Assembly (NCBI RefSeq): GCF_003852425.1
Contig: NZ_QAJN01000001.1
Span: 695,987-759,986 of the forward strand
Source of the DNA: Paucibacter sp. KBW04
Lineage (GTDB): Bacteria; Pseudomonadota; Gammaproteobacteria; Burkholderiales; Burkholderiaceae_C
DNA: 64,000 bases
Direction: 5' to 3'
Part shown: positions 1 to 21,197 of the stretch, one piece after another
How positions within the stretch are numbered: the stretch's first letter is position 1
How the letters are laid out: each line of letters starts with the position of its first letter
Notes under the pieces: generated by a model
What the model was told of the DNA's origin: nothing
Seen by the model: the letters and a program-made list of their open reading frames with translations, nothing else
Database searches by the model: none
Made by a program: the position numbers and the translations under genes

Positions 1-528
1 TACCCGCTCCAGATGCAGCATCCAGTTGGAGCTGAGCGCGGCGGTGAGGTGGGGCATCAGGATCTGCTTGGTGCGGCGCTCATGCTCGGTGAAGGGCGGC
101 TTGCCTTCGCAGCGGTAGAGCGAAAGAAAAGCCATCAGATTGAGCTCAGGCAGCAAGGTGACGGTGCACAAACAGCTGGTGATGCCGAAACGCGCCATCA
201 AGGAGGCCAGGCCGGGTGAGCTTTGCACGGCCTTGCGGCCGAAGTTCACGCTGCGGCCCGGCGTCGCCATGACGGCGGCGGCCAGGGTGTCTTCATCCTT
301 GATCTCATCCCAGAGCGAGGGGTAGAAAGCCGGCAGGCGGTAGGGCAGGGAGGCGTGAATCTCCAGCGGGCCATCAGGGGGCTGAGAGGCCATGCCCCAC
401 CAGGCGGCGTCGAAGTCAAAGCGCGCGCTCAGCGCGTCCAAAGCCAGGCGCTGAAAGGTCTGTATCGGCGCCAGATGGGCGAGACGGTACAGCTCCAACA
501 AGGTCTTGCCAAAGGTTTCGGTGTTCAT
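1..528 (-). CDS. LuxR-type transcriptional regulator, N-terminal part (cut by window edge)
   Basis: An open frame on the minus strand starts at ATG 526-528 and stays open to base 1, so only the first 176 residues are visible and the C-terminus is missing. The visible part is a soluble alpha/beta domain without signal peptide or membrane segment. It ends in a stretch resembling the pre-HTH part of LuxR regulators that carry a GAF-like sensor domain (...PFTEHERRTKQILMPHLTAAL...). The HTH itself would lie outside the window, so the family call is an inference. It lies 84 bp downstream of the DMFase large-subunit gene on the same strand and is a plausible local regulator of that amide operon. Confidence 0.6.
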   Translation of the reverse strand, partial: MNTETFGKTLLELYRLAHLAPIQTFQRLALDALSARFDFDAAWWGMASQPPDGPLEIHASLPYRLPAFYPSLWDEIKDEDTLAAAVMATPGRSVNFGRKAVQSSPGLASLMARFGITSCLCTVTLLPELNLMAFLSLYRCEGKPPFTEHERRTKQILMPHLTAALSSNWMLHLERV

Positions 529-2940: not shown

Positions 2941-4476
2941 TTAGCTCTCCAGAAGGTCTTGGCAACGTTTGAGGAAGACCGCGTGGGTGGCGGCTTCGAT
3001 GGAGTCGTAATGCTTGTCGTCCACCAGACGGGGCGGCACGCCGCGTTGGCCGGACAGCGCGATCAAGCGGTAGCGCTTGAAGGCTTTTTTCTCCGACATC
3101 AGCGCGTATTTGTCCGTGATGGCGGCAAAGCGGAAGTAATGCAGCAAACGCGTCAGATCCTCGGCATGCTGGCCCCAGGGCAAGACGCGGTGTTCTTCCA
3201 GCACGGCGGGGGTGATCAAGCGCTTGAGGCCGTCGCGCTGGCGTTTGTCGTGGCTGCGCAAAGAAATCAAGGCCTTGTCGGCGATGGCAATCGCCTCCTC
3301 GGGCATCACCTCGCCGCCCGCCTCGCTGCGCATGGCGCGCGCCTCGCTCTGTTTTTTAAGGCGCCAGGCGCGGAACTGGGCACGCACGCCCATCAAGCCG
3401 GCACGGGTGTAAAGCACGGTGGCCAGCATCAGCGCGCCTATCAGCACCAGGCGCCAGGAGCCCCACTCGATCAGCAGCTTGTCCAGCATGACGACGATCA
3501 GGGTGCCGGCCACCGCGCCCTCGGCCGTGCCCAGGCCGCCAATGACGATCATGGCCAGCATCAGCAAGAGGTTGTCGATGCCGAATAGCGAGGGCGAGGC
3601 GCCCTGGAAATGCGCGGCGTAGATGCCGCCGATGGCGCCCAGGGCGCTGGACGAGATGATGAAGACCTGCAGCCGGGCGCGCCGCACATCGATGCCGCAG
3701 GCCTGGGCAAAGGCCTCTTGCTTCTCGGGTGCGCTGCGCAGCAAACGCCCCAGCCGCATGCCGTTGACCACCCGGTAGAGGCCCAAGGCCAAGAGCATCA
3801 CCGAGAAACAAACGACGTAACTCAGCAGCATGGCGCTCTGCTCGTCCAGGCCATCGGGCAGGTAGGAGGCGGCGCCAAACAAGCCGCCTGTGGCCGAGCC
3901 CAGGGCTTGCGATTGCACGACCGAGACCCGGCACAGCTCCACCAGGCCCAGGGTGAGCAAGGCGTAGTAAAAACCTTCCAGCCGCATGGCTGGCAGCGCG
4001 ATGATCAGCCCGAACAAGCCTCCGGTCGCCGCGCCCACGCCCACCATGCCCCACCAGGGCAGGCCAAACTCGATGGACAAATATGCACCGCAATAAGCCG
4101 CCGCACCCACGATGGCCAGGCTGGCCAGCGAGAAGATGCCCGCCGTGCCTATCACCAGCATCCAGACCAGATTGATGGCGGCGTAGAGGGCGAAGATGGC
4201 GGCGGCCGACAGAAGGCTGGCGCTCTCCAGCTGCAGGCCCAGCACAGGCGGCAAGATGGCCAGCAGGCCAAGCGCAGCCGCCCACCACAACGGGCGCTTG
4301 TCGAGGATGAGGATCTCGCGCGACAAGTCCTTGGGGTTGTAGCGGCCCTGGGTGAGCAAGAGGGTGCGGCGGCTGCCGGGGATGCGCCAGCGTGCCCACA
4401 GCTGCTCGCTATGGCCGCGCCAGCGCGGCCGCCAGTAGCGCGCGCCGACGCGATGTTTCTTGGCTGCGATGGCCAT
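2941..4476 (-). CDS. LivM-type ABC permease fused to a DMFase small-subunit domain
   Basis: One continuous 511-residue frame carries two proteins that are normally separate. Residues about 65-360 are a multi-pass LivM-type branched-chain/urea/amide permease with the cytoplasmic loop GMRLGRLLRSAPEKQEAFA. Its N-terminal cytoplasmic extension of about 60 residues is longer than usual. After a basic linker (about 366-390), residues about 391-511 resemble the 15-kDa DMFase small subunit, notably LLHYFRF, KYALMSEKKAFKRYR and EAATHAVFLKR near the C-terminus. That homology is judged from memory of the family. The next gene downstream encodes the cognate large subunit. An in-frame ATG (3304-3306, residue 391) at the domain junction has GGCGAGG just upstream and could also yield a free small subunit. 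No stop or frame change lies between the domains. Confidence 0.82.
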   Translation of the reverse strand: MAIAAKKHRVGARYWRPRWRGHSEQLWARWRIPGSRRTLLLTQGRYNPKDLSREILILDKRPLWWAAALGLLAILPPVLGLQLESASLLSAAAIFALYAAINLVWMLVIGTAGIFSLASLAIVGAAAYCGAYLSIEFGLPWWGMVGVGAATGGLFGLIIALPAMRLEGFYYALLTLGLVELCRVSVVQSQALGSATGGLFGAASYLPDGLDEQSAMLLSYVVCFSVMLLALGLYRVVNGMRLGRLLRSAPEKQEAFAQACGIDVRRARLQVFIISSSALGAIGGIYAAHFQGASPSLFGIDNLLLMLAMIVIGGLGTAEGAVAGTLIVVMLDKLLIEWGSWRLVLIGALMLATVLYTRAGLMGVRAQFRAWRLKKQSEARAMRSEAGGEVMPEEAIAIADKALISLRSHDKRQRDGLKRLITPAVLEEHRVLPWGQHAEDLTRLLHYFRFAAITDKYALMSEKKAFKRYRLIALSGQRGVPPRLVDDKHYDSIEAATHAVFLKRCQDLLES

Positions 4477-4482
4477 GGTTTT

Positions 4483-5355
4483 TTACTCCCGCGTATGGTC
4501 GAGCAGACCGCCCAGGCCCCGGGGGCGCAGCAGCAGCACGGCGATGATGAAAAGAAACTGGGTGATCAAGACGTATTGACCGCCCAGCAAGGCGCCGGTG
4601 AGGGCTTCGATCACGCCCACCAGCACGGCGGCGGCCACCGCGCCCGGCACCGAGCCCAGGCCACCGGCCAGGGCCACGATCAGCCCCTTCACCAGCGGCG
4701 TGGTGCCGGCATAAGGGCTGACGAAATAGGTTTGCGACAGCAAGACCGCCGCCATGCCCGCCAGGCCTCCCGTCACCGCCATCACCAGCAAGGCGGTGCG
4801 GCGCACGCCGATGCCGACCAGGGCCGCGCCCTCGGGGTTTTGCATCATGGCGCGCACCTGCAAGCCCATGCGGCTGCGCGTCATCCAGAGCAGGGTCAGG
4901 CCCATCAGCAAAAGCGCGCAGGCGATGGTACCGGCCTTGTCGGCCGGAATGCCGCCCCAAGCCCCCGCGCCAAACAGAGGCGGCAGGCTGCGCGCGCTGG
5001 GCCCGAAGGCGGTTTGCAAACCCTGGATGCCCAGCAGATTGATGGCCAGGGTGGCCACCATGCCGCGCATCACGAAGTTAGGCTTTTCGTGCAATGGGAT
5101 GAAGGCAATGGCGCAGATCAGCAGGCCGCAGAGCGCGCCGACCGCCAAGCCACCGGCCATCACCAGCCAGGGGTTGCTGCTCAGATAACTGGCCACCAGC
5201 CAGGCGCCATAGCCGGCGGTGGCAAAGCTGAAGCCATGCGCCATATTTACCAGGCCCAGGCTGGCAAACACGATGGAGACGCCCAGCGCCAGGAGCGCAT
5301 AGATGCAAGACAGATTGAGGGCCGAGAGGGCGATGAAGCTGAGGTCGGTGCTCAT
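4483..5355 (-). CDS. LivH-type ABC transporter permease
   Basis: The 290-residue polytopic inner-membrane protein belongs to the branched-chain amino acid/urea/amide permease family. Its N-terminus (LSCIYALLALGVSIVFASLGLVN) and the MAHGFSFATAGYGA stretch are typical of LivH/UrtB proteins. The loop RSRMGLQVRAMMQNPEGAALVGI is the expected ATPase-coupling region, and the KGLIVALAGGLGSVPGA segment is conserved in the family. It should pair with the LivM-DMFase fusion encoded 6 bp downstream. Substrate identity cannot be read from the permease; the downstream amidase suggests a small amide. Confidence 0.88.
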   Translation of the reverse strand: MSTDLSFIALSALNLSCIYALLALGVSIVFASLGLVNMAHGFSFATAGYGAWLVASYLSSNPWLVMAGGLAVGALCGLLICAIAFIPLHEKPNFVMRGMVATLAINLLGIQGLQTAFGPSARSLPPLFGAGAWGGIPADKAGTIACALLLMGLTLLWMTRSRMGLQVRAMMQNPEGAALVGIGVRRTALLVMAVTGGLAGMAAVLLSQTYFVSPYAGTTPLVKGLIVALAGGLGSVPGAVAAAVLVGVIEALTGALLGGQYVLITQFLFIIAVLLLRPRGLGGLLDHTRE

Positions 5356-5400: not shown

Positions 5401-6105
5401 TCAGGCGCTGCCCTTGAGTTGGCCGGCGTGCATGCCCAAGACCCGGTCCACCCGGCCACTCAGCAGGGCCAGGTTTTGCTCGGCGATCACCAGGGCCCCG
5501 GCACCCAGCTCCAGGCTGAGCAAGGCATCGACGATGCTGCGGCTGATCTTGGGCGCCAGGCCTAGCGAGGGCTCGTCCACCAGATAGAGCTTGGCCGGCG
5601 TCATCAGGCCGCGCGCCAGCGAGACCATGCGGCGCTCGCCGCCCGACAGGCTGCCCACCGGCGACTTGATCAGCTTTTGCAGGGGCGCGAACAGGGCCAG
5701 CAACTCCTCTTGACGGCGCCGGCGCTGGCGCCAGGCCTGGGCGGTGAAGGCGCCGCAGTCCAGGTGCTGGGCCACCGTCAGGCCGGGAAAGATGGCGTCG
5801 CCCTGCGGCATATGGGCCAGGCCCATGCGGACGATTTTGTGGGTCATGCGGCCCGCGCCGCCGCTGCGCACGCGGCCGACCTCCACCCCGCCCAGACGGA
5901 TCGAGCCGCGCTGCCAGTCGGTGAGGCCGCTGATGGCGCGAAACAAGGTGGACTTGCCATGGCCGTTCAGCCCCACCAGGGCGACCTTCTCGCCCGCCGT
6001 GACGGCAAAGTCCAGATCGTGCAGCACCGTCAAGGGCCCGTAGCCGGCCGATAGATTGCGCACCTGCAAAATGCCTTCGCTCGCGTGCATGGGCTTGTTG
6101 TTCAT
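5401..6105 (-). CDS. LivF-type ABC transporter ATP-binding protein
   Basis: A 234-residue ABC ATPase with Walker A GLNGHGKST (from residue 45), Q-loop Gln101, an intact signature LSGGERR (from residue 153) and Walker B LYLVDEPSLGLAP with Asp177/Glu178. The LGLAP extension after Walker B is typical of LivF proteins. Its ATG overlaps the stop codon of the livG-like gene (positions 6102-6105), implying translational coupling. It should form a heterodimer with that partner, whose signature motif is degenerate, so this subunit supplies the only canonical signature in the pair. Confidence 0.9.
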   Translation of the reverse strand: MNNKPMHASEGILQVRNLSAGYGPLTVLHDLDFAVTAGEKVALVGLNGHGKSTLFRAISGLTDWQRGSIRLGGVEVGRVRSGGAGRMTHKIVRMGLAHMPQGDAIFPGLTVAQHLDCGAFTAQAWRQRRRRQEELLALFAPLQKLIKSPVGSLSGGERRMVSLARGLMTPAKLYLVDEPSLGLAPKISRSIVDALLSLELGAGALVIAEQNLALLSGRVDRVLGMHAGQLKGSA

Positions 6106-6845
6106 GCGGCCTCCGCTTCAAAGTAGGCCGCGCGCACCCGGGGTTCTTGAAACACCTGTTCGGGCAGGCCGTCGGCAATCAGCTCGCCCCCGTCCAGCAC
6201 CACCACCCGACCCGCCAGGGCGGCCAGCAGCTCCAGCCGGTGCTCGACCAGCAGCACGGCGACCTGCAGCTCCTGGGCGACATAGCGCAGGATGCCGTCG
6301 ATGGCGTCGATCTCGGCATTGATCAGGCCAGCGGCCGGCTCGTCCATCAGCAAGACCTTGGGCTTGCGCATCAAGAGGCAGGCCAGCAGCAGACGCCTTC
6401 GGTCCAGCGCGCCCAGCGAGCCCGCCAGGGCGGCGGGCCGCCAGGCCAGGCCCACCTGATGGGCCGCCCATTCGGCATCGTGGGCGCTCAGGAATGGCCG
6501 ATAGGCTTGGCGTGCGGCCCTGAAGACCTCGCCCAGGCTCAGGTGTTCGGGCACCACCGGGCTTTGGTAGGTGCGGCCTATGCCGAGTCGGGCGCGGGCA
6601 TGCAAGGGCAGGCGGGTCAGCTCGGTCTCGCCCAAGAACACCTGGCCGCGGCTGGGCCGCAGGCGGCCGCTGAGGATCTCGAACAAGGTCGTCTTGCCCG
6701 CGCCATTGGGCCCCACCACGCCCAGCACCTCGCCGGCCTGGGCGGCCAGGGAGATGTTCTTCAAGACCTCCCGGCTGCCAAAGGCGTGGCCGATAGCCCG
6801 GCAGCTGAACAGGGCCGGGCCTGGCTTCAAGCTCGCAGCGCTCAT
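6102..6845 (-). CDS. LivG-type ABC transporter ATP-binding protein with degenerate signature
   Basis: A 247-residue ABC ATPase with Walker A GPNGAGKTT (from residue 45), Q-loop RTYQ (Gln94), Walker B VLLMDEPAAGL (Asp168/Glu169) and H-loop His202. The position of the LSGGQ signature instead reads SLGALDRRRLLLA (about 143-155), without the Ser-Gly-Gly core. If the heterodimer assembles in the usual way, the composite site made of this signature and the LivF Walker A would be weakened, giving an asymmetric ATPase. The gene begins 1 bp after the stop of the binding-protein gene and overlaps the next gene by 4 bp, so all are in one operon. Confidence 0.88.
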   Translation of the reverse strand: MSAASLKPGPALFSCRAIGHAFGSREVLKNISLAAQAGEVLGVVGPNGAGKTTLFEILSGRLRPSRGQVFLGETELTRLPLHARARLGIGRTYQSPVVPEHLSLGEVFRAARQAYRPFLSAHDAEWAAHQVGLAWRPAALAGSLGALDRRRLLLACLLMRKPKVLLMDEPAAGLINAEIDAIDGILRYVAQELQVAVLLVEHRLELLAALAGRVVVLDGGELIADGLPEQVFQEPRVRAAYFEAEAA

Positions 6846-6846
6846 C

Positions 6847-8139
6847 TCATTTCATCCATGGCGCGGCCTTGAAGCCGGACTGCTTGAGCGCGTCCGGCGC
6901 GATGATGCGGTGCTGGCCGCCCTGCACCTGGTAGAAGAGCTGGGCAATGCCTTCCTCGGGCTTGCTGACCTCTAGCGGATAGTTCAGCGGCGCCTGGTTG
7001 GCGTTGTCAAAACGGTAGAAGCCGTTGACGCCGCGGTACTTCAGCTGGCGCAGTGCAGCGTTGACGGCCTTGAAGTCCTCGGGGGCGGCCTTGTTCCAGG
7101 CCTGGGCCAAGAGCTGGACCGCGTCATAGCCGCCGCCGGTGTAGACCAGGCCCATCACGCCGCCCTTGGCTAGGTATTCGGCCTGGTATTGATCGCGGAA
7201 AGTCTGGCCTTGCTTGTCGGCATATGCGCCATAGACGGTGCCCCACACAAAGCCCTCGGCGGCCGCACCAGCCAGGTTGAGGAACTCGGGTTGCGAGGGG
7301 CCGTACTGCAGATAGACCAGGGCGCCGGGCAGGGGGTTGGCGGCGAACTGCTTGGCAAAAGCGGCCAGCTCGGCGGCCACCCAGTGATTGACCATCACGA
7401 TGCCGGCGCCGGTGTTCTTGATGTCTTGCAGCACCGGGCCCCAGTCCTGCACCGGGAACTGGATCTGGGTGATCTTGGCGACTTCGTATTTGCCCCGGGC
7501 CTTGAACTGCTCGGCCGCCGCCTTCGTGATGTTCTGCGTGTAGGCGATCTGCTCGGTGATGATGTGGACCTTTCGGTTCACCGGCTTCCAGCTGCCATGG
7601 GCCTCCAGCTGCTCGCAGAACAGGGGGAAGCCCGCGCCGTAGAACGTCTCCGGCGGATCGATCTGGTAGATGTGGCCGTACTGGGCCGGGTTCTTGCGCA
7701 CCAGGTCCAGCGAGGCCTGCTGGGTATTGCCGTGCAGATAGGGCGCTTTGTAATTGGCCACCGTGGCCATGGCCGGCACGGGGATCAGGACGAAGGGCGA
7801 GACGATGGCCTGCACCTTGGCGTCGACGATTTTGCGCAAGGCTGCTTGCGTGCCTTCGGGCGTCAGCAGGTCGATGTCCACCACCCGCAGGGTCAAGGGG
7901 CGGCCCTTGATGCCACCGGCCGCATTGATCTGCTTGAGCGCCAGCTGGGCGCCCTTGAGGAAGTCGGCATGGTCGGCCACCCCGGCCGGCCCGCTTTGCG
8001 CAATCGGCATGCCGATGGTGATGGGCGTTTTGTCCTGGGCTTGGGCCCAGCCGGGCAAGACGGCGGCGGCCGCTGTGCTGGCCAGGCCTTGAAGCAGTTG
8101 GCGTCGACGTTGTGCATTAGCGCTGGATCGATGGGACAT
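6847..8139 (-). CDS. Periplasmic amide/amino-acid-type substrate-binding protein (Peripla_BP_6, Tat signal)
   Basis: The 430-residue protein starts at ATG 8137-8139, chosen because AGGAG stands just upstream and the product then begins with a twin-arginine signal (QRRRQLLQGLASTAAAAVLPGWAQAQ). The frame extends further upstream but without a comparable site. The mature protein starts with the typical Liv/Urt/AmiC-like strand TPITIGMPIAQSGPAG and has the two-lobed Peripla_BP_6 layout. As first gene of the operon it should deliver the ligand to the LivH/LivM membrane pair. Use of Tat export suggests folding before export. Ligand specificity is not visible; the DMFase subunits downstream suggest a small amide. 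Confidence 0.85.
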   Translation of the reverse strand: MSHRSSANAQRRRQLLQGLASTAAAAVLPGWAQAQDKTPITIGMPIAQSGPAGVADHADFLKGAQLALKQINAAGGIKGRPLTLRVVDIDLLTPEGTQAALRKIVDAKVQAIVSPFVLIPVPAMATVANYKAPYLHGNTQQASLDLVRKNPAQYGHIYQIDPPETFYGAGFPLFCEQLEAHGSWKPVNRKVHIITEQIAYTQNITKAAAEQFKARGKYEVAKITQIQFPVQDWGPVLQDIKNTGAGIVMVNHWVAAELAAFAKQFAANPLPGALVYLQYGPSQPEFLNLAGAAAEGFVWGTVYGAYADKQGQTFRDQYQAEYLAKGGVMGLVYTGGGYDAVQLLAQAWNKAAPEDFKAVNAALRQLKYRGVNGFYRFDNANQAPLNYPLEVSKPEEGIAQLFYQVQGGQHRIIAPDALKQSGFKAAPWMK

Positions 8140-8455: not shown

Positions 8456-9358
8456 ATGACTCAGTCCACCCGCTTGCCCATACGCCCGCTTCCTTCTGCA
8501 GCGGTCCAGCTGTCCGCCCTGATTGGCGGCCTCGCCTTGGCCGCCAGTTCGGCCCAGGCTCTTGAAGCCCATCCGGGCGATGCGGTCGCACCGCCGCCCG
8601 GCATGGGTCTGGTCGGCCTGTATGCGATTCACACCGACTTGGGGCCGCTGCGGGTGCAGGGGCAGACGGTGGAAGGGCCCAAGGCCAGGGCCGATGTGGG
8701 CTTGCTGCGCTTGTTCTATGCCACCCGGCTGGGCAATGTGCAGATCAATCCGCAGATGGTGATCCCCTTCGGCCGCGTCGCGGGCCAAGGCACGCTCGCA
8801 GGTCTGGAGAGCGCCAGCGGTATTGGTGATGTCAGCCTGCTGGCCTCGGTGATGCTGGTGCAGGATGCGGCCTCGCGCAGCTCCGTCTATCTGATGCCTG
8901 GCGTGACCTTCAAGACCGGGGCTTACGAGCCCTTGAAGCTGTCCCTCGGCGAGAACCGCAACAAGTTCGTGCTGCAACTGGGAGGGCAAACCGGCCTGGG
9001 CAAGGACTGGATCGTCGATGGCTATCTGGACCTCACCGCCTATGGTGATAACGATCGCAATGCCGCCGGTGCCTTGAGCCAAAAGCCGCTGCTGACCTTG
9101 CAGAGTTTTTTGCGCTATGCCCTCGCACCGGGCAGCGAGTTGGCCTTTGGTTTGCGGCATTTCACCGGCGCCGAAACCTCGCTGGCCGGCGTGGCGCAAC
9201 ACGACGGCCAGAGCCGCACCAGCTTCTTGCTCAACGGCTCGCATTGGCTGTCGGACGGCAAGACCCAGCTGATGTTCAACTGGGGCCGCGACCTGAACAC
9301 CGAGAACGGTTTCAAGGCCACGAGCAACTTTGAGTTGCGCGCCATTCGCTTGTTCTAA
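8456..9358 (+). CDS. Outer-membrane transporter, phenol-degradation meta-pathway family
   Basis: The frame is longer, but ATG 8456 is preferred because GGAG precedes it and a signal peptide follows (LSALIGGLALAASSAQALEA). The 300-residue product resembles the Phenol_MetA_deg/SphA-like beta-barrel family. These proteins are encoded beside catabolic genes for aromatics and are thought to pass hydrophobic substrates across the outer membrane. Visible features are the MGLVGLYAIHTDLGPLRV start, the LMPGVTFKTGAY central strand and a C-terminus ending in aromatic Phe (LRAIRLF), as expected for a barrel. It is divergent from the amide operon and upstream of the amine dehydrogenase cluster, so it could serve either. 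Confidence 0.65.
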   Translation: MTQSTRLPIRPLPSAAVQLSALIGGLALAASSAQALEAHPGDAVAPPPGMGLVGLYAIHTDLGPLRVQGQTVEGPKARADVGLLRLFYATRLGNVQINPQMVIPFGRVAGQGTLAGLESASGIGDVSLLASVMLVQDAASRSSVYLMPGVTFKTGAYEPLKLSLGENRNKFVLQLGGQTGLGKDWIVDGYLDLTAYGDNDRNAAGALSQKPLLTLQSFLRYALAPGSELAFGLRHFTGAETSLAGVAQHDGQSRTSFLLNGSHWLSDGKTQLMFNWGRDLNTENGFKATSNFELRAIRLF

Positions 9359-9595: not shown

Positions 9596-10786
9596 ATGCC
9601 CATGCCCCCCGTGCCGCCCCGGCGTCCCCGCCTTCTCGCGCCCTTGCTCATGAGTCTCTCAGTCGCTGCGGCCACGGCAGCGACCCCCGCCGCCTTGCCG
9701 CCCGAGTTGCCGCCCGAAACGTTGAGCACCTCGACCCTGGATGCCGCCCAGCAAGCCCGCGTCTATGTGGCCGATGTCTCCATCGCCCATATCCACGACG
9801 GCCGCATCCGCATCTACGACCCCCGCGATGCCAAGTTTCTGGGCACCATCTCGACCGGCTATGTGGGCAACTTCACCCTCAGCCCCAAGCGCGATGAACT
9901 CTATGTCGCCACCAGCTTTCTCTCGCGCGGTGTGCATGGCGAGCGCCTCGATGTGCTGGAGATCCATGACACCAATGCCCTGACCGTCAAGGGCGAGATC
10001 CTCTTGCCGCCGCGCCGTGCCCAGGCCCTGACCTATCGCGGCCTGGTGCGGACCAGCGCCAACGGCCGCTTTGTGCTGGTGCAAAACGCCACGCCCGCCA
10101 CCTCGATCACGGTGGTTGATCTGCAAGAGCGCAAGGCCGTGGCCGAGGTGCAAACCCCCGGCTGCTGGGGCTTGCTGCCCGCCGCCAGCCATGCGACGCG
10201 CTTTTCCATGCTGTGCGGCGACGGCAAGGTGGCCACCGTCACCCTGGACGAGCAAGGCCAGGTGGCCGATCGCCAGCTCAGCGAGAAGTTGTTTGATGCC
10301 GATGCCGACGCCTGGTTCCACCATGCGGAGCAGATCGGCGATCGCTATTGGTTTGTCTCCTTCAAAGGCACTTTGACCGAGCTGGATCTGGGCGGCCCGG
10401 CCGCGCGGGTCAGGGCCAAGACGGACTTGGTTCAAGGCTTGAAAGGCGGTTGGCGTCCGGGTGGCTACCAGCTGTTCGCGGTCCATCCCGATGGCCGCTA
10501 TGCCGTCGTCGCCATGCATGACAAGGGCGTCGAGGGTTCGCACAAACGACCCGCCACCGAGCTGTGGACCTTTGATCTGCAGACTGGCAAGCGGGTGGCC
10601 AAGGCGCCCGGCCTGGGCACGGCGGCCATGACCTTCTCTCGCAATGGCCAGCGCCTGCACACCCTCAGCGGGGTCAACGGCGAGATGCGCAGCTGGCAAT
10701 GGCCGCAGGCCGGTGTGACGCCCAAATTGCTGAGCGTGGTCAAGCGGGCCGGGGAGAGTGCCTTGCTGCTTGAGACGCAGGACTGA
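9596..10786 (+). CDS. aauB: Aromatic amine dehydrogenase large subunit
   Basis: The 396-residue exported protein is of the MauB/AauB family, the seven-bladed beta-propeller heavy chain of TTQ-dependent amine dehydrogenases. A signal peptide (LLMSLSVAAATAATPAALP) is followed by RVYVADVSIAHIHDGRIRIYD and LGTISTGYVGNFTLSPKRDELYVA, characteristic first-blade sequences. Further propeller strands run to the end. An AAGGA site lies upstream of ATG 9596. The order large subunit, E, D, small subunit follows in the same direction, as in the aau and mau operons. The product should act in the periplasm with the small subunit encoded at 12020 to oxidise primary amines to aldehydes and ammonia. Confidence 0.9.
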   Translation: MPMPPVPPRRPRLLAPLLMSLSVAAATAATPAALPPELPPETLSTSTLDAAQQARVYVADVSIAHIHDGRIRIYDPRDAKFLGTISTGYVGNFTLSPKRDELYVATSFLSRGVHGERLDVLEIHDTNALTVKGEILLPPRRAQALTYRGLVRTSANGRFVLVQNATPATSITVVDLQERKAVAEVQTPGCWGLLPAASHATRFSMLCGDGKVATVTLDEQGQVADRQLSEKLFDADADAWFHHAEQIGDRYWFVSFKGTLTELDLGGPAARVRAKTDLVQGLKGGWRPGGYQLFAVHPDGRYAVVAMHDKGVEGSHKRPATELWTFDLQTGKRVAKAPGLGTAAMTFSRNGQRLHTLSGVNGEMRSWQWPQAGVTPKLLSVVKRAGESALLLETQD

Positions 10787-10794
10787 GCAAGATC

Positions 10795-11373
10795 ATGTGG
10801 AACGCTTCTTCCTCTTCGACCGCGCTGCTGGATCCGCTCCTGGTGTGGATCGCGGCGGCCCTGATCGCCACCTTGTTCGCCCATGCGGCCCTGGCCAAGT
10901 TTGGGGACCTCGATCTGTTTGAGCAGCATCTGGCGGCCTATGGCGCGGCCCGTCTGCCCCTGGGCTTGCAAACCCTGTTGAGCCGTTTGATCCCCAGCCT
11001 GGAGCTTTTGACCGCCGTGCTGAGCCTGAGCCCCGCTCGCAGCCTGGGGGCGGGCCTGGCCTTGCTCCTGCTGCTGAGCTATGCCGCGCTGATGGCCTGG
11101 CATCGCCTGCAGCGTCACAGCCTGGACTGTGGTTGCGGTGGGGCGCCGCTGCCGGTCTCCTGGCTGCTGGTGGGGCGCAATGTGGCCCTGGCCCTGCTGG
11201 CCTGGCTGGCCACTGGAACCGACAGCGGGCGCGCGCTGGGCCTGGCCGATTTCGCCGTGCTGGTGGGCAGTCTGGTCTTGGCCTTGCCCTTGTACGCCGC
11301 CTTCAACCAGGTCTTGCGCCACCCCCTGGCGCGCCGCCTGCCCCCTGCGGGCCATCGCGGCCACGCCCATTGA
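10795..11373 (+). CDS. aauE: MauE/AauE-family membrane protein for amine dehydrogenase maturation
   Basis: The 192-residue integral membrane protein has about four or five hydrophobic helices. A DoxX-like first helix (ALIATLFAHAALAKFGDLDLFEQHLAAYGA) and a conserved LDCGCGG stretch in the middle are typical of MauE-type proteins. These are thought to work with MauD in export, disulfide formation or stability of the cysteine-rich small subunit; the Cys pair in CGCGG may take part in redox transfer. It starts 8 bp after aauB and lies between the two structural genes, as in the aau operon of Alcaligenes faecalis. Confidence 0.85.
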   Translation: MWNASSSSTALLDPLLVWIAAALIATLFAHAALAKFGDLDLFEQHLAAYGAARLPLGLQTLLSRLIPSLELLTAVLSLSPARSLGAGLALLLLLSYAALMAWHRLQRHSLDCGCGGAPLPVSWLLVGRNVALALLAWLATGTDSGRALGLADFAVLVGSLVLALPLYAAFNQVLRHPLARRLPPAGHRGHAH

Positions 11374-11403
11374 CGCCTCTTTTTTGCTGACGGAGTTCAT
11401 GCG

Positions 11404-11991
11404 ATGAATGCAATCACTATTTCCCTGCTGCTCTTGTGGCTGGCCGTGCTGGCCCTGGGCCTGATGTTGTGGGCCTTGTCCCGCCAGGTCGGTGTGCTGT
11501 TTGAGCGGGTGGCGCCCATGGGCGCCCTGGTGACCGACTCGGGCCCGCCTATCGGTTCACCTAGCCCGCAATTTGCGCTGACCGGCATCCAATCCGAGCC
11601 GGTAAACCTGGGCGGCGCTCAAGCCACGCCCACCCTGGTTTTCTTTCTGGCGCCCACCTGCCCGGTGTGCAAAAAGCTGATCCCGGTGCTCAAGGCCTTG
11701 ATGCGCGACGAAGGCCGGCAATTGCGGGTGGTGCTGGCCAGCGATGGCGATGCCGATCACCTGGGCTTTGTGCGCGAGCAAGGTTTGCAAGCCATGCCTT
11801 ATGTGGTGTCCAGCGAGCTGGGTATGGGCTACCGGGTTTCACGCCTGCCCTATGCCGTCTTGCTGGACGCCCAGGGCCTGGTGGCGGCCAAGGGCTTGGT
11901 CAATTCGCGTGAGCAGCTCGACAGCCTGCTCAATGCCCACGATATGCATATGCCCACCATCCAGCAATACCTCACAGGCAAGCCGGCCTGA
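11404..11991 (+). CDS. aauD: MauD/AauD-family thioredoxin-like maturation protein
   Basis: The 195-residue protein has one N-terminal membrane anchor (residues about 5-25) and a periplasmic thioredoxin-like domain with the redox motif CPVC (Cys86, Cys89) in FFLAPTCPVCKKLIPVLKA. A cis-Pro-type loop is visible at RLPYAVLLD. MauD proteins are required for correct disulfides in the TTQ-bearing small subunit, which here carries 14 cysteines. The gene sits directly upstream of the small-subunit gene. Confidence 0.88.
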   Translation: MNAITISLLLLWLAVLALGLMLWALSRQVGVLFERVAPMGALVTDSGPPIGSPSPQFALTGIQSEPVNLGGAQATPTLVFFLAPTCPVCKKLIPVLKALMRDEGRQLRVVLASDGDADHLGFVREQGLQAMPYVVSSELGMGYRVSRLPYAVLLDAQGLVAAKGLVNSREQLDSLLNAHDMHMPTIQQYLTGKPA

Positions 11992-12019
11992 GCCCACAGC
12001 CGACTACAGGAGAACTCTC

Positions 12020-12574
12020 ATGCAATGGCTGACCGATTTGATTGACAAGAAAACCGAGAAACGCCTGCGCCAAGTGGCCCACAGCCAGGGCCGGCGCAGC
12101 CTGCTGGGCCGCCTGGGCGTGGCGCTGGTGGGTGGGGCCGTCTTGCCCATGCTGCCGTTTGACCGCAGCGGTCAATTTGCTGGCAGCGCCCAGGCGGCGG
12201 AGCTGCCCAAGGGCGGCAAGGCCAAGCTGGCGGCCAATCAGGACCCGACCCAGTGCGAGTACTGGCGCTACTGCGCTTTCGACGGCTATTTATGCACCTG
12301 CTGCGGCGGCAGCCTGACCCAATGCCCACCGGGGGCCGAGGCCTCCAAGGTCAGCTGGGTGGGCACCTGCATGAATCCGGCCGACGGCCGCCACTACTTG
12401 GTTTCCTACAACGACTGCTGCGGCAAGAGCGCCTGCGGCGAATGCCTTTGCAATAACAACGAGGGCGAGCGGCCGGGCTACCGCCTGGGCATCCATAACG
12501 ACATCAATTGGTGCATGGCCAATACCAGCCCCATGTTCCATTGCACCACCTCCATCATCGTCGGGGTGGCCTGA
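12020..12574 (+). CDS. aauA: Aromatic amine dehydrogenase small subunit (TTQ-bearing)
   Basis: The 184-residue protein starts at ATG 12020 behind CAGGAGAA. It has a long twin-arginine leader (GRRSLLGRLGVALVGGAVLP) followed by a Cys-rich mature domain. Trp113 (SWVGTC) and Trp164 (DINWCMAN) are 51 residues apart, the spacing of the TTQ tryptophans W109/W160 in AADH. Asp132 (YNDCC) corresponds to catalytic Asp128, with the same 19-residue offset. The mature part has 14 cysteines, the number I recall for AADH, against 12 in methylamine dehydrogenase; this and the C-terminus FHCTTSIIVGVA favour the aromatic amine enzyme. Likely substrates are phenylethylamine, tyramine or related amines. Confidence 0.92.
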   Translation: MQWLTDLIDKKTEKRLRQVAHSQGRRSLLGRLGVALVGGAVLPMLPFDRSGQFAGSAQAAELPKGGKAKLAANQDPTQCEYWRYCAFDGYLCTCCGGSLTQCPPGAEASKVSWVGTCMNPADGRHYLVSYNDCCGKSACGECLCNNNEGERPGYRLGIHNDINWCMANTSPMFHCTTSIIVGVA

Positions 12575-12576
12575 GC

Positions 12577-13011
12577 ATGAAGCGCGGCTTGCTTGTTTTG
12601 ATGCTCAGCGCAGCTGCTGTTGCGCAGGCGGCCGATGGCCAGGCCTTGTTCGCCCAGCATTGCGCCACCTGCCACCAGGCCGATGCCTCCGGCACCGTGG
12701 GCCTGGCACCGCCGCTCAAGGGCGGGCATTGGCAGCGCCTGGGGGCGGACAAGGACTATCTGCCCTCGGTCTTGCTGCATGGCTTGTCGGGCCGCATCCA
12801 GGTGGAGGGCCAGGTGTTCTCCGGCCTGATGCCCGCCTTCGGCCCGCAGCTGGACGATGCGAGCCTGGCCGCCATCGCCACCCATTTGCGCGGCTTGCAG
12901 GCCCAGCCCGAGCCGCAGGCCCTCAGCGCCGAGCAGTTCAAGCAATTGCGCGCGCAGCCCGGCAACCCGGCTCAAACGCGCCAGCGTCGCCAGCAAATCT
13001 TGGGTAGCTGA
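12577..13011 (+). CDS. Periplasmic monohaem cytochrome c
   Basis: Taking ATG 12577, 2 bp after the aauA stop, gives a 144-residue protein with signal peptide MKRGLLVLMLSAAAVAQA. There is one haem-binding CATCH (Cys29, Cys32, His33) and a likely axial Met85 in GLMPAFG, i.e. class I cytochrome c. A monohaem cytochrome gene (orf-2) follows aauA in Alcaligenes faecalis as well. It is a plausible electron acceptor for the dehydrogenase, since no azurin or amicyanin gene is present here. Confidence 0.85.
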   Translation: MKRGLLVLMLSAAAVAQAADGQALFAQHCATCHQADASGTVGLAPPLKGGHWQRLGADKDYLPSVLLHGLSGRIQVEGQVFSGLMPAFGPQLDDASLAAIATHLRGLQAQPEPQALSAEQFKQLRAQPGNPAQTRQRRQQILGS

Positions 13012-13016
13012 AGATC

Positions 13017-13490
13017 ATGAAGCTCTTGTGCGCCATCTTCTTTCTGCTCCTGCTGTGCTCGGTGGCCAAGGCCGAGGGCATGGGTCGACAGGTGGTGCCG
13101 CAGGCCGCCACGCCTGCCGCGCCCAGCAGCAGCGCGCGCAGCCTGTTTGTCTTGCGCTGTGCTGGCTGCCATGGCATGGATGGCTCAGGTTCCAAACTAG
13201 GCCTGGTGCCCGATATGCGCCGCCTGGGCAACTTCCTGCGCCTGGAGGGCGGGCGCGAGTTTCTGATTCAGGTGCCAGGGGTGATGGGCTCGGGCCTCGA
13301 TGACGCGCAGGTCGCGGCGGTCAGCAACTGGCTGCTGGCCACGGTGGCCAAGGACTCGGTGCCGGCCGAGCACAAGCCCTATACGGCCGAAGAAATCACC
13401 CGCTTGCGTGCCAAACCCCTGGTGGACGTGGCCGCAGCCCGCCAGGCCCTGGTGGCACAGGGGCAGGCCTTGGGCATCACCATCGACTGA
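13017..13490 (+). CDS. Second periplasmic monohaem cytochrome c
   Basis: A 157-residue exported protein (signal peptide about residues 1-19) with a single CAGCH (Cys48, Cys51, His52) and a possible axial Met at GVMGSG (Met90). It begins 5 bp after the preceding cytochrome gene. The pair could form an electron relay from amine dehydrogenase to the terminal oxidase. With one haem motif it cannot be a MauG-type dihaem enzyme. Confidence 0.82.
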   Translation: MKLLCAIFFLLLLCSVAKAEGMGRQVVPQAATPAAPSSSARSLFVLRCAGCHGMDGSGSKLGLVPDMRRLGNFLRLEGGREFLIQVPGVMGSGLDDAQVAAVSNWLLATVAKDSVPAEHKPYTAEEITRLRAKPLVDVAAARQALVAQGQALGITID

Positions 13491-13559
13491 GCTTGCTATC
13501 GCCGGATCACGCGGCGGGAATGACGCTCGCTTCTTTTGACCTCCAACAGGTAAACCACC

Positions 13560-14948
13560 ATGCATGCGAAAAAGAACAAGTCTGCTGCGCAGCGCAAGCT
13601 GCATCTGCACCTCCCTGTTTGGGCTTTGCTGGCCGCCGCGGCCATCCCAAGCCAAGCCGCCGGCCCCGAGGCCCTGGGCAAGGAGCTGACGCCCATGGGG
13701 GCGGAGCGCGCCGCCAGCAAGGACGGCCTGGTGCCCGCCTGGACGGGTGGCGATATGAAGGCCCCGGCCGGCTGGAAGCCAGGCCAGGCAAGACCTGACC
13801 CCTATGCCGCCGACAAGCTCTTGTTCAGCATCGACGCCAGCAATGCCGACAAGTACAAGGACCGCCTGAGCGAAGGCCAAATGGCCTTGCTCAAGACCAT
13901 CAAGGGCTACCGCATGGATGTGTACCCCACGCGGCGTAGCTGCGGCTACCCCGAGGCGGTCTACGAGAACACCCGCAAGAACGCCGGCGGTGGCGCCAAG
14001 CTGGCCGCCAATGGTTTTGATCTGGACAAGGCCTTGAGCGGCGGCGCGCCTTTCCCCATCCCCGCCAACGGGGCCGAGGCGATGTGGAACCACAAGCTGC
14101 GCTGGCTGGGGGAAGGGCGCATCGAGCGCTATTCCACCGTCTTCTCGGACAGCAGCGGGGGCAAATTCGTGCCCCTGGTGCAGAACCAATGGACCTCGAC
14201 GCCGGCCGGCAATCTGGCCGGCAAGCCCATCACCGAGGGCGAGGGCGTGGAGTACCGCCTGCTCAACGAGGTGGTGACGCCGCCGGCCCGCACCGGCGAG
14301 CTGATCCTGCTGCATTACTCGCTCAACAAGGACAACGACGCCTGGCTCTACTTCCCCGGCCAGCGCCGAGTGCGGCGCGCGCCCACCTTCTCCTACGACA
14401 ACCCGGTGCCGGGCTATGAAAACCTGCTGGCCGTGGACCAATACCCCATGTTCGGCGGTCGCCTGGACCGCTATGACTGGAAGTTAATGGGTAAGCAGGA
14501 GATGGTCGTGCCCTACAACACCTTCCGCTTCAATGACCAGAACAAAAAACTGGAGGAGGTGTTCGGTGCCGACTCGCCCAAGCGTGAGCTGATCCGCTAC
14601 GAAACCCACCGGGTCTGGAAGATCGAGGCCACCGTCAAGCCGGGCCAGCGCCACACCTTCCCCAAGCGGGTGATCTATCTGGACGAGGACACCTGGATGA
14701 TGCTCTCGGCCGATCTTTACGACGCCCAGGGAAAGGTCTGGCGGGTGCAGGAGTCCTACCCCTATGTGGCCTGGGAGTTGCCGGCCTGCGTCTACCAAGG
14801 CTATGTGGGTTATGACCTCAATGTGGGCCGCTATATGGCGGACAACATGCCGCAGAGCGGCACGACGGACTGGCTGGCCGGGCGCGAAGGGCGCATCGAT
14901 GCCAACAAATTCAACTCCGATGAACTGCGCCGCGCCGGTGGCCGTTGA
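13560..14948 (+). CDS. DUF1329-family envelope protein (LolA/LolB-like fold)
   Basis: The 462-residue exported protein has signal peptide LPVWALLAAAAIPSQAA. The family hallmarks are visible: an N-terminal ELTPMGAERAASKDGLVPAWTGG stretch, a central YSLNKDNDAWLYFPGQRRVRRAP segment and FGGRLDRYDWKLMGKQEM further on. DUF1329 proteins are distant relatives of outer-membrane lipoprotein-sorting proteins and regularly accompany DUF1302 and MMPL genes. They are thought to handle hydrophobic molecules in the periplasm, but the precise role is unknown. It starts 69 bp after the cytochrome gene and probably belongs to the same transcript. Confidence 0.82.
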   Translation: MHAKKNKSAAQRKLHLHLPVWALLAAAAIPSQAAGPEALGKELTPMGAERAASKDGLVPAWTGGDMKAPAGWKPGQARPDPYAADKLLFSIDASNADKYKDRLSEGQMALLKTIKGYRMDVYPTRRSCGYPEAVYENTRKNAGGGAKLAANGFDLDKALSGGAPFPIPANGAEAMWNHKLRWLGEGRIERYSTVFSDSSGGKFVPLVQNQWTSTPAGNLAGKPITEGEGVEYRLLNEVVTPPARTGELILLHYSLNKDNDAWLYFPGQRRVRRAPTFSYDNPVPGYENLLAVDQYPMFGGRLDRYDWKLMGKQEMVVPYNTFRFNDQNKKLEEVFGADSPKRELIRYETHRVWKIEATVKPGQRHTFPKRVIYLDEDTWMMLSADLYDAQGKVWRVQESYPYVAWELPACVYQGYVGYDLNVGRYMADNMPQSGTTDWLAGREGRIDANKFNSDELRRAGGR

Positions 14949-14963
14949 AGAAGGAGGCAGAGC

Positions 14964-16739
14964 ATGAAAACACCCCACAGCTTCAAGCAACATCGCCTGG
15001 CCGCCGCTCTGGCGCTGGCCTTGATCGGCACGCAGGCACTGGCCGTCAGCACGACGACCGAGAACGGCACGGTGATCGACTTCAGCTCCACCCTGTCCTT
15101 CGGCGCCCAGGTCCGCCTCAAATCGCCCAACCCCCAAGCCCTGGGCAATGACAACGGTGGCAATGTGCCCACCAGCGCGCCCTTGGGCTCCTTGATCAAC
15201 GGCCCGGGCAATAACGCGGCCGCCAATCCGGACTTCAACTTTCTCAATAGTGACGACGGCAATCTCAACTACCGCCGCGGCGACATCGTCTCGGCGCCGC
15301 TGAAGGGCACGCATGAGCTGGGCGTGAAGACGACCGACGGTTGGCGTGTGCTCTTGCGCGGCAGCTGGGTGCTGGACCCACAGGCGGCGCAGACCCGCCG
15401 CACCGAGCTCTCCAGCGAGGCCAAGGGCATCGCCGTCCACAACTTCACCTTGCTGGACGCCTGGGTGTCCAAGGACTTCCGCTGGCTGGACGACAAGGCC
15501 GCGACGGTGCGCCTGGGCAATCAGGTGCTGAGCTGGGGTGAAGACATCTTCATCATCGGCGGCATCAACCAGACCAATGCGCTGGACCTGCGCAAGCTGC
15601 ACACCCCCGGCACCCAGGTCAAGGAAATTCTGCGGCCCGCACCCATGCTGAGCCTCAACACCGCCTTGAGCCGCAGCCTGAGCATGGAGGCTTACTACCA
15701 GTTCGGCTGGAATGCCTATCGCTTCGACCCGGTGGGCACCTTCTTCTCCACCGCCGATGTGGTCGGGGCCGGCCAGCGGCCTGCCTACATCCCCAGCTCG
15801 GTCTTGGGCTGCCCGGCCAGCGCGCCTTGCGGTGACCATGGCACGGCGATTCAGCCGGGCCTGAATGTGGTGGGTTTTGAGGCCGACCACGAGCCGCCCC
15901 AGGGCAAGCAATACGGTCTGGCCCTGCGCTTCAAGCCGCAGGCCCTGGACACCGAGTTCTCCTTCTACTACCAGCGCTATCACGACAAGCTGCCCTTCAC
16001 CACCTTGTTCACCGACCCGGCCTATGCCGCGCAGAACGTGGCCAATATCGGTTACTACAACGAGTATGGGCAGAACAAAGACCTGTTCGGCTTTTCCTTC
16101 AACACCAAGGCCGGGCCCATCGCCCTGGGCGGTGAGCTGTCCTACCGCCCCAAGGACTCGGTGGCCATCGATGGCAGCGTGCCGCTCTCGGGCCGCTACA
16201 GCATCTTTGACCCCGCCAATGCCGATGCCAAGGGCCGTGCAACGGTGCGCGGTTTTGTCGAGGAGAAAAAGATCCAGGCCCATCTCACTGGCTTGTATTT
16301 CACCGAGGTCAATTCACCCATGGGCGCCCTGGTCAAGGCCTTGGGCGCGGCCGAGGGCACGGTCTTGGCCGAGGTGGCCGTTACCCATTACCCGAACTTG
16401 AAGACCAGCGAGATCCCCTATCTGGTCTTCCCCACCTATGCCTCGCCGGACAAGACCTCCTGGGGCTATGCGATGGAGTTTGATCTGAGCTACCCGCATA
16501 TCTGGGGCAGCGACTGGAATCTGACCCAATCCACGGTCTTCACCCATGACGTCAAAGGCGTCTCGCCCAATACCTTGCCATTCTTGGAAGGTCGCAAATC
16601 GCTGTTCCTGGGTCTCTTGTTCGACAAGGGTTCGGAGTGGAAATGGCAGCTGGGCTACACCGCCTTCTTCGGCGGTGGCCAGGCGAATCTGCTGCGGGAT
16701 AGGGACAACATCGCCACCAGCCTTTCATTTAACTTTTGA
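14964..16739 (+). CDS. DUF1302-family outer-membrane protein
   Basis: The 591-residue protein has a signal peptide (LAAALALALIGTQALA) followed by GTVIDFSSTLSFGAQVRLKS, the usual DUF1302 start. It has alternating beta-strand character and a C-terminal Phe (LSFNF), indicating a beta-barrel. The segment RLGNQVLSWGEDIFIIGGINQTNALDLRK is the most characteristic family motif. DUF1302 proteins co-occur with DUF1329 and MMPL transporters and are proposed to move hydrophobic compounds across the outer membrane. It begins 15 bp after the DUF1329 gene. Confidence 0.82.
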   Translation: MKTPHSFKQHRLAAALALALIGTQALAVSTTTENGTVIDFSSTLSFGAQVRLKSPNPQALGNDNGGNVPTSAPLGSLINGPGNNAAANPDFNFLNSDDGNLNYRRGDIVSAPLKGTHELGVKTTDGWRVLLRGSWVLDPQAAQTRRTELSSEAKGIAVHNFTLLDAWVSKDFRWLDDKAATVRLGNQVLSWGEDIFIIGGINQTNALDLRKLHTPGTQVKEILRPAPMLSLNTALSRSLSMEAYYQFGWNAYRFDPVGTFFSTADVVGAGQRPAYIPSSVLGCPASAPCGDHGTAIQPGLNVVGFEADHEPPQGKQYGLALRFKPQALDTEFSFYYQRYHDKLPFTTLFTDPAYAAQNVANIGYYNEYGQNKDLFGFSFNTKAGPIALGGELSYRPKDSVAIDGSVPLSGRYSIFDPANADAKGRATVRGFVEEKKIQAHLTGLYFTEVNSPMGALVKALGAAEGTVLAEVAVTHYPNLKTSEIPYLVFPTYASPDKTSWGYAMEFDLSYPHIWGSDWNLTQSTVFTHDVKGVSPNTLPFLEGRKSLFLGLLFDKGSEWKWQLGYTAFFGGGQANLLRDRDNIATSLSFNF

Positions 16740-16759
16740 GTGGCCAGGCCCCCATCTCC

Positions 16760-19120: not shown

Positions 19121-19121
19121 T

Positions 19122-20096
19122 ATGACTCAGCCTAAGCAATCTCAAGGGCTCTCGCGCCGCGCCTGCCTGGGCTTGGCCGCTGCGGCCTTGTTGCCGCAAG
19201 CCCCAGCCGCCGGGGAGCTGGCCCTGCATCGCCCCCTGGCCGCGCGCAGCACTTGCCTGGATGTCTGCCAGGCCGGTACCCGCCTGGTGACCGTGGGCGA
19301 GCGGGGTCATGTCTTGCTCTCTGACGACCAGGGCCAGCATTGGCGGCAAGCGCGCAGCGTGCCCACCCGCACGATTTTGACGGCGGTGCATGCGGTCGAT
19401 GCGCAGCGTCTGGTGGCGGCAGGCCATGGCGGCTTGATTCTGAGTTCCAGCGATGCGGGTGAGAACTGGCGGGTGGCGGCCGGCTCGGCCACGGGGCCGG
19501 ATACCTTGCTGGCCATTCGCCTGGAGGCCGATGGTGTCGGCCTGGCCGTGGGCGGCTTTGGCTATGCCTTGCGCACGCTGGATGGTGGCGCTACGTGGAA
19601 GCGGGTCGAACTGCTCAGCGGCGAGGCGGGCGAGCGGCATTTCAACCGCATCTTTGTCTCGACTCGCGGCACCTGGCTGATCGCGGCCGAAGGGGGTCAG
19701 GTCTTGCGCAGCGAGAACCGAGGCGAGCACTGGTCCGCCGTGGTCACGCCGTATCAAGGCTCTTTGTGGAGCGGCCTGGCCTTGAGCGAGGGCACGCTGC
19801 TGGCCTGCGGCATGCGAGGCAATCTGCTGCGCAGCGTGGATGACGGCCTGACTTGGCGCCACATCGCCATGGCCGCCGCGGGCGCAGGTTCGCTGACCGG
19901 GCTGACCCTGCTGGCCGATCACAGCCCCTTGCTGGTGGGCTTGGACGGCAGCTTGCTGCGCGGCAATGTGAGCGGCGAGCAGTTCAAGTTTCAGCGCCTG
20001 GAGGACAGGCCCAGCCTGAGTGGGGCCCTGGCCTTGGCCGATGGGCAGGTGCTTTTGATCGGCAATGGCGGGCCGCGTCTCTACCACCCGATTTGA
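19122..20096 (+). CDS. YCF48-type/BNR-repeat exported protein
   Basis: A 324-residue protein with an Arg-containing leader (GLSRRACLGLAAAALLPQAPAA) and recurrent BNR-like repeats such as LLSDDQGQHWRQA, ILSSSDAGENWRVA, LRTLDGGATWKRV, LRSENRGEHWSAV and LRSVDDGLTWRHI. These form a beta-propeller related to the photosystem II assembly factor YCF48/HCF136. It follows the MMPL gene by one base, and such genes are usual partners of MMPL/DUF1302/DUF1329 sets, perhaps as periplasmic assembly factor. Direct function in this bacterium is unknown. Confidence 0.8.
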   Translation: MTQPKQSQGLSRRACLGLAAAALLPQAPAAGELALHRPLAARSTCLDVCQAGTRLVTVGERGHVLLSDDQGQHWRQARSVPTRTILTAVHAVDAQRLVAAGHGGLILSSSDAGENWRVAAGSATGPDTLLAIRLEADGVGLAVGGFGYALRTLDGGATWKRVELLSGEAGERHFNRIFVSTRGTWLIAAEGGQVLRSENRGEHWSAVVTPYQGSLWSGLALSEGTLLACGMRGNLLRSVDDGLTWRHIAMAAAGAGSLTGLTLLADHSPLLVGLDGSLLRGNVSGEQFKFQRLEDRPSLSGALALADGQVLLIGNGGPRLYHPI

Positions 20097-21161: not shown

Positions 21162-21197
21162 GGCGGGCAGCGCGCAAAAAATCATGGAGGACGGACG

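Follow-up and report, generated by a model that had tools for sequence, protein, structure and literature searches.

The window analysed in this study, a stretch of 64,000 nucleotides from Paucibacter sp. KBW04, carries on its reverse strand a single open reading frame that runs uninterrupted for 511 codons and joins a LivM/UrtC-type permease to a DMFase (dimethylformamidase) small-subunit domain (Table 1). The DMFase-like large subunit is encoded next, after a spacing of only 3 bp, and the remaining parts of an ABC importer precede the fusion gene on the same strand. A transporter and an enzyme part are held within one polypeptide, which makes the gene a transporter-enzyme fusion. The earlier note, made from the sequence alone, had described one frame, a LivM-type permease, a DMFase small-subunit domain and a large subunit 3 bp downstream, and each of these points stood up to the searches given below.

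Table 1. Features of the window around the fusion gene, with the evidence used for each
Feature	Coordinates	Strand	Evidence
Fusion gene, LivM/UrtC-type permease + DMFase small subunit, 511 aa	2941..4476 (incl. stop)	-	ORF, Pfam, PDB, model
Permease part, residues 61-356 (model helices)	3409..4296	-	Pfam match 89-353; AlphaFold2 model
Linker, residues 357-391 (helix 361-384, then loop; basic)	3304..3408	-	Model, alignment
Codon 391 (ATG), at which a free small subunit may start	3304..3306	-	Weak ribosome-binding site here
DMFase small-subunit domain, residues 392-511	2944..3303	-	PDB sequence and fold matches
DMFase-like large subunit, 774 aa	613..2937	-	6lvb_A match, Pfam DMFA2_C, iron-site alignment
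LivH/UrtB-type permease	4483..5355	-	Pfam/NCBIfam
ABC ATPase, UrtE/LivF-like	5401..6105	-	Pfam/NCBIfam
ABC ATPase, UrtD/LivG-like	6102..6845	-	Pfam/NCBIfam
Substrate-binding protein, Peripla_BP_6, weak Tat-signal match	6847..8139	-	Closest solved relative 3h5l_A, E 2e-57
LuxR-family-like regulator, cut by window edge, starts at 528	1..528	-	Similarity to L038 regulator
TTQ amine dehydrogenase cluster (heavy chain, MauE, MauD, light chain), divergent	9596..12574	+	Bit-score and NCBIfam comparison

With regard to the permease part, the match to the Pfam family BPD_transp_2 reached E 1.4e-25, and LivM and UrtC were the top NCBIfam models, both under their cut-offs. Searched alone against PDB, this part returned no match, and in a Foldseek comparison with PDB the permease part of the AlphaFold2 model displayed a weaker likeness to PsaC- and BtuC-like importers. 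Residues 1-60 of the fusion (4297-4476, reverse strand) form a long basic N-terminal extension with conserved motifs, which could be a second docking element.

For the C-terminal domain, residues 371-511 alone matched the DMFase small subunit 6lvb_B at E 6e-8, and a profile built from the C-terminal domains of 55 fused proteins had 6lvb_B as its sole PDB match (E 5.5e-17); Pfam and NCBIfam, searched up to E 1, gave nothing for this domain. AlphaFold2 modelling of the whole fusion with 55 fused proteins (pLDDT 87.4, pTM 0.79) produced a structure whose top PDB match in Foldseek was again 6lvb_B, with a TM of 0.82 by target length and an rmsd of 1.6 Å over 117 columns. The last 121 residues modelled alone gave the same fold (pLDDT 87.3), for which 6lvv_B and 6lvb_B were the only matches under E 0.001, and the four helices and two strands of the DMFase small subunit were read in the same order in both models. 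By sequence and predicted fold, this domain is a DMFase small subunit, and the profile search and the structure prediction that the earlier note had proposed as checks both recovered it, the latter for the fusion itself; chance similarity of the domain is ruled out by the profile and the fold match. In the window, the small subunit is not a separate chain, being in frame with LivM, and no second small-subunit copy was detected in the window genome.

The binding protein, the two BPD_transp_2 permeases and the two ATPases of one operon make up a LIV/urea (HAAT) importer. None of the importer subunits reaches the NCBIfam cut-off of a named LIV or urea subunit, so branched-chain amino acids or urea are unlikely to be the substrate. 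The order SBP-ATPase-ATPase-LivH-LivM::small-large was complete in 56 of 69 fused loci, and the 13 incomplete ones comprise 12 cut by contig ends and one (L056) with an ATPase in two frames. The LuxR-like gene at the window edge, whose visible part (1..528) had no Pfam or NCBIfam match, shares 41% identity over 174 residues with the LuxR (GerE) regulator beside the L038 fusion operon; among the 100 loci L037-L136, 21 have a relative of the latter, two of these loci belonging to one genome. A Phenol_MetA_deg family outer-membrane protein (8456-9358, forward strand), encoded divergently to the binding protein, could be the outer-membrane pore of the substrate. The TTQ cluster then continues (9596-13490, forward strand) with two small proteins with CxxCH haem motifs, seen by eye, and is followed on the same strand (13560-22925) by an ORF at 13560-14948, a DUF1302 protein, an MMPL/RND transporter, a YCF48/BNR-repeat protein, an AraC regulator and an acyl-CoA ligase; the RND and BNR proteins have relatives beside one other locus only (L127).

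The large subunit of the window matched 6lvb_A at E 5.5e-179 and Pfam DMFA2_C at E 1.2e-88. Its Y400, Y441, H521 and E523 align to Y399, Y440, H519 and E521 of the Paracoccus enzyme, and by this alignment it possesses the 2-Tyr-1-Glu iron site together with the catalytic His. A total of 101 large subunits were compared, and the equivalents of Y399, Y440, H519 and E521 were intact in all 91 found outside tandem loci. In the five loci that harbor large subunits in tandem, exactly one of them has lost an iron ligand in every case: the first in L120 and L121 (Y399F and H519R), and the second in L108 and L132 (Y440C) and in L142 (E521A). As some of these five loci are related on the tree, we count about three losses, of three different ligands. 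By this pattern, one of the two halves of the dimer may be structural, and a possible enzyme/pseudoenzyme heterodimer may be seen in each of the five loci. N547, which is not a ligand, is Asp in three unfused rows.

To describe the spread of the fusion, named genomes were scanned with the large-subunit alignment, and the nearest 80 of at least 573 relatives comprised 65 fused loci, 11 unfused loci and 4 cut by contig ends, a proportion that is biased toward fused loci because only those nearest the window's large subunit were kept. Two metagenome bins labelled Klebsiella pneumoniae (L082 and L112) and one record labelled Oceanobacillus (L109) are included in these numbers, but their labels look doubtful and they were not used to argue for the spread. 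The fused groups were Proteobacteria including SAR11, Actinomycetota and Desulfobacula, and the names in the scan list were Limnohabitans, Methyloversatilis, Rhodopseudomonas, Bradyrhizobium, Methylobacterium, Methylopila, Hansschlegelia, Hyphomicrobium, Roseovarius, Desulfobacula, SAR11 (Pelagibacteraceae) and actinomycete bins. Within the window's family, a small-subunit match was noticed in 3 of 250 genomes: the window's own, a single-contig genome of another genus that shares the fusion (G133), and a third whose small gene stands apart. DMFA2_C scored above its cut-off in 17 of 399 genomes of the window's order, and a near full-length fusion match was present in 3 of 398 genomes of a phylum-wide draw, the window's own included; overall, the fusion is rare. 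In another order, 15 of 397 genomes had a strong match to the L121 fusion, of which six (L161, L163, L166, L168, L173 and L175) were judged to be in our sample already and nine were new.

Plasmid records with the small subunit number 35, and in 24 of these it lies inside a gene called branched-chain amino acid permease; pAt of Agrobacterium is one plasmid example. Separate small genes occur in Paracoccus pAMI2, Methylobacterium DM1, Rhodococcus USK13 and the archaeon Halalkalicoccus. The stand-alone small subunit of Halalkalicoccus (L140, 7413-7955) is annotated as an inner-membrane translocator and matches 6lvb_B at 2.2e-8, its annotation having apparently been carried over from fused relatives. 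In one SAR11 locus (L096), LivM and the small subunit are in different frames, and we counted it as unfused. An AmiS/UreI family transporter (L145, 10499-11053) adjoins the unfused DMFase operon of Rhodococcus, a different amide route combined with the same enzyme.

A tree of 101 large subunits (72 fused, 23 free and 6 unlabelled), which is a quick tree with long-branch warnings, requires at least eight label changes. Its outermost labelled rows are free, including those of Paracoccus, Rhodococcus and Halalkalicoccus, and the fused rows constitute one large clade with some free rows inside. The fusion looks derived, since the outgroup DMFases are unfused; we read the tree as an early fusion with some later losses, and several gains are possible. 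The earlier note knew of no described example, and we likewise found no description of a DMFase joined with an ABC transporter in the open-access library searched, though the fusion itself is present well beyond the window genome; the accessible text of a SAR11 rhodopsin paper names dimethylformamidase in a gene cluster and does not mention the fusion there (PMC10308929).

The linker between the two parts is uniform. Residues 361-400 align gap-free in all 55 proteins, and the majority-residue level of the linker (357-391) is 0.71, comparable to the permease (0.68) and the small domain (0.70), with 0.57 for the N-terminal extension. Omega was below 0.36 in permease, linker and small domain in all 22 of the 24 cells (eight gene pairs) with a computable dS. 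Across the same 55 proteins, the 35-residue linker has a mean of 9.9 K+R against 3.7 D+E, and the 60-residue N-terminus 17.6 against 6.8. Because both stretches are strongly basic, the positive-inside rule places the C-terminus of the fusion in the cytoplasm, though by prediction only; the earlier note had regarded a periplasmic C-terminus as fatal to its reading, and the prediction goes the other way. No signal sequence was seen by eye in the large subunit. The central claim of the earlier note, that the fusion tethers an amide hydrolase to its importer, is strongly supported by the retention of the fusion over several classes and phyla, by the gap-free linker, by the identity of the domain in sequence and predicted fold, and by the partner encoded next door with an intact active site. 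The interpretation of the note is thus supported in part, docking, channelling and cleavage on import being putative.

A further property of the linker is that it may hold a start site. Of 72 fused genes, 32 have ATG at codon 390, 22 have it at codon 391 and four more have GTG at codon 391; for the genes without a separate small gene, 55 of 60 have ATG (51) or GTG (4) at codon 390/391. The codons ahead of this candidate start often read AAA GGA GGC GAG, a ribosome-binding site, and the mean ribosome-binding energy there was -10.5 kcal/mol (60 genes) as compared with -8.1 for synonymous shuffles, -1.8 for 774 other internal Met codons and -5.2 for 81 large-subunit starts. Although 55 of the 60 genes lay beyond the 5th percentile of the control, only 22 of 60 were singly at or below 0.05 against the shuffles, since the protein motif KGGE itself favours a ribosome-binding site. 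Five SAR11 genes, at 0.55-0.68, are indistinguishable from their shuffles, and the site of the window is weak (-6.2 against -6.3 in shuffles). The codon GGA is used at the first linker Gly in 34 of the 53 genes with Gly there, against 11% elsewhere in the same genes, and in none of the 12 genes with a separate small gene in the locus.

Such separate small-subunit genes are present in the loci of 12 of the 72 fused genes. Where the free small gene stands directly before the large subunit, ATG is missing at both 390 and 391 (8 of 8 loci), and where it stands before the second large subunit, three of four loci keep ATG; on the permease tree, this association between a separate gene and a lost start amounts to two or three independent events, which cannot reach significance. 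The nine new genomes of the other order added one with a free small gene and no ATG, six with ATG, of which two have weak sites and one (L174) is cut before any next gene, and two with TTG behind a strong site. In one clade of five fusions, consisting of four actinomycete records and one bacterium, neither an internal start nor a separate small gene was in view. Judging from these nucleotide signals, most relatives probably also make a free small subunit from the same gene; Methylopila and G133, which is akin to Limnohabitans, are among those that likely form an internal product, which is doubtful in the window organism because its site is weak. The fusion, which the earlier note had treated as the only source of the small subunit, hence does not appear to be so in most relatives, nor in the loci with a separate gene.

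Amine-handling genes are frequent among the neighbours. Relatives of the heavy and light chains of the window's TTQ cluster are located beside six other distinct loci, namely L037, L039 (L134 being from the same genome), L058, L059, L084 and L110, and copper amine oxidases are found beside two fused loci (L061 and L063) and two unfused loci (L140 and L145). A glutamate-synthase-like trio occurs in seven loci, five of them SAR11, and a type III glutamine synthetase adjoins all six SAR11 loci, scoring above its NCBIfam cut-off in L101; we take the trio and the synthetase to be a methylamine assimilation route. In L101, the fusion operon is flanked by a formate-tetrahydrofolate ligase (104-1276) on one side and the trio with the type III glutamine synthetase (12420-16677) on the other. 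The ligase was next to a fusion operon in this locus only, and the neighbours of L101 fit a release of formate and amine. The best match in the window genome to the type III glutamine synthetase of SAR11 is at 35%, which leaves that genome without a near relative of it. The neighbours differ between clades, yet three kinds of them consume amines, which points to an N-substituted amide yielding an amine as the substrate class.

Read by eye, the window's TTQ cluster had first been taken for a methylamine dehydrogenase, a reading made doubtful by its heavy chain, which scored 104.6 against the NCBIfam methylamine cut-off of 454.45. The heavy chain is nearer to aromatic amine dehydrogenase (232 vs 83 bits), the light chain does not separate the types (178 vs 173.5 bits), and the light chain and MauD narrowly pass the methylamine-type NCBIfam cut-offs. 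The amine set free by the amidase would probably be consumed by this cluster; as TTQ amine dehydrogenases are enzymes of the periplasm, it would first need to get back out of the cytoplasm in the window organism. Membership in the DMFase family does not by itself give the substrate, because a homologue, the AceAB acetamiprid amidase of Pigmentiphaga, acts on other compounds; it is a two-subunit enzyme that, according to the accessible text, is not active on DMF (PMC11573777).

Published work on the Paracoccus DMFase, in the text accessible to us, offers a structural basis for the tether: the large subunit alone is inactive and requires the small subunit for activity, the N-terminal helix of the small subunit is wedged between two large subunits, and the iron site is entered between the large and the small subunit (PMC7686228). 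With the entrance between the subunits and the small subunit tied to LivM, the entrance should be brought to the importer. In the mechanism that we infer, a LIV/urea-type ABC importer would bring in an N-substituted amide, the cytoplasmic C-terminus of LivM would carry the small subunit of a DMFase-like iron amidase, the large subunit, next in the operon, would dock on this tethered small subunit, and the linker of constant length would hold the active-site entrance close to the membrane. The known DMFase is alpha2beta2, against an importer with one LivM and one LivH, which would allow one tethered small subunit; this mismatch is the reason why most relatives would make a second, free copy, from the internal start in the linker or, in some clades, from a separate gene. 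The product would be an asymmetric enzyme with one half tethered and one free, or, where no free small subunit is made, one enzyme that could bridge two importers. The benefit could be that a scarce or leaky substrate is caught before it diffuses away. We consider this importer-tethered asymmetric amidase, taken as a whole, the probable explanation, with fair confidence.

Several other explanations were weighed against it. That the apparent fusion arises from a frameshift, a sequencing error or chance similarity is improbable in the extreme: it recurs in 65 of the 80 named loci and in single-contig genomes, and its C-terminal domain agrees with 6lvb_B in profile and fold. A sequencing error at the junction, in particular, which the earlier note had feared, is excluded because the same fusion exists in a single-contig genome of another genus of the family as well as in those 65 loci, the very search in other genomes that it had recommended. 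A far stronger contender, to which we give not quite an even chance, is that the tether operates without channelling, the fusion serving to co-localise the enzyme or to couple its amount or assembly to the importer, so that the substrate mixes with the cytoplasm before cleavage. The conserved covalent link would be predicted by either reading, the facing of enzyme entrance and importer exit is putative only, and the same active site serves unfused relatives that have no importer: neither Paracoccus pAMI2 nor Methylobacterium DM1 shows a LIV importer in the stretch seen around its unfused DMFase, so a DMFase does not need the tether, and 11 of the 80 near relatives are also unfused. Against this stand the constant length of the linker and its conservation, equal to that of the folded parts, which is more than a loose tether needs.

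It is also conceivable, though we regard it as unlikely, that the arrangement is one of gene economy, in which internal initiation supplies the small subunit mainly in free form, the joined protein being a tolerated or minor product. The strong internal ribosome-binding sites and start codons of most relatives, as well as the separate small genes in the loci of 12 of 72 fused genes, agree with such an explanation. However, the joined form is kept in frame, gap-free and under purifying selection even in those 12 loci, where it was free to decay, the same conservation is displayed by fusions without an internal start, and the window's own internal site is weak. Less likely still is a sensor or brake, in which the amidase, through the tethered small subunit, would monitor or control the importer instead of taking over its substrate. 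Regulatory domains are known at the cytoplasmic ends of other ABC importers, and the ligand-less large subunits of the tandem loci could be regulatory, but all 91 large subunits outside tandem pairs keep their catalytic residues. Returning to the tethered amidase, its widest version is one that we put forward only tentatively and hold to be somewhat doubtful: a single gene would yield both a permease-tethered and a free small subunit, the asymmetric amidase on one importer would cleave the cargo at entry, and the tandem-large lineages would combine one catalytic with one ligand-less large subunit, from soil methylotrophs to ocean SAR11.

Handover from an importer to an enzyme is hard to test as the contacts are usually transient, and here several groups of bacteria have made the contact covalent, their natural variants (unfused, fused-plus-free and tandem-large) providing a ready comparison set. 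A single gene from which one enzyme subunit is made both tethered and free would moreover be a simple route to an asymmetric complex. Since the genes are called branched-chain amino acid permeases, as in 24 of the 35 plasmid records, an amide-uptake system seems to be hidden under a wrong label, and this mislabelling extends to SAR11, which is among the most abundant bacteria of the ocean.

Comparatively, the system shares the large subunit (E 5.5e-179), the small-subunit fold, the iron ligands and the catalytic His with the Paracoccus DMFase (dmfA1-dmfA2; PDB 6lvb), and a LuxR-type regulator adjoins both, as the accessible text reports for Paracoccus (PMC4543880); on pAMI2, however, the small subunit is a separate soluble protein. 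With the LIV/urea (HAAT) importers it has all five parts in common, namely the binding protein, two permeases and two ATPases, but here LivM bears an enzyme subunit at its C-terminus and the scores fall below the cut-offs of the named subunits. AceAB is likewise a two-subunit DMFase homologue, whose accessible description mentions no fusion (PMC11573777). The internal start resembles that of the Cas11 small subunits, where translation also begins at an in-frame start within a larger cas gene and yields its C-terminal part on its own (PMC11899642, accessible text), although Cas11 belongs to a CRISPR complex without a membrane protein and the internal product here is only predicted. Transporter-enzyme fusions are already known as a kind, and the nearest known principle is LplT-Aas, a lysophospholipid transporter and an acyltransferase that are fused in some bacteria, in which a transporter is likewise in one frame with an enzyme acting on its cargo and for which the accessible text proposes substrate tunnelling (PMC11416262); it unites an MFS flippase with a whole enzyme, whereas the present fusion joins an ABC importer to a non-catalytic subunit.
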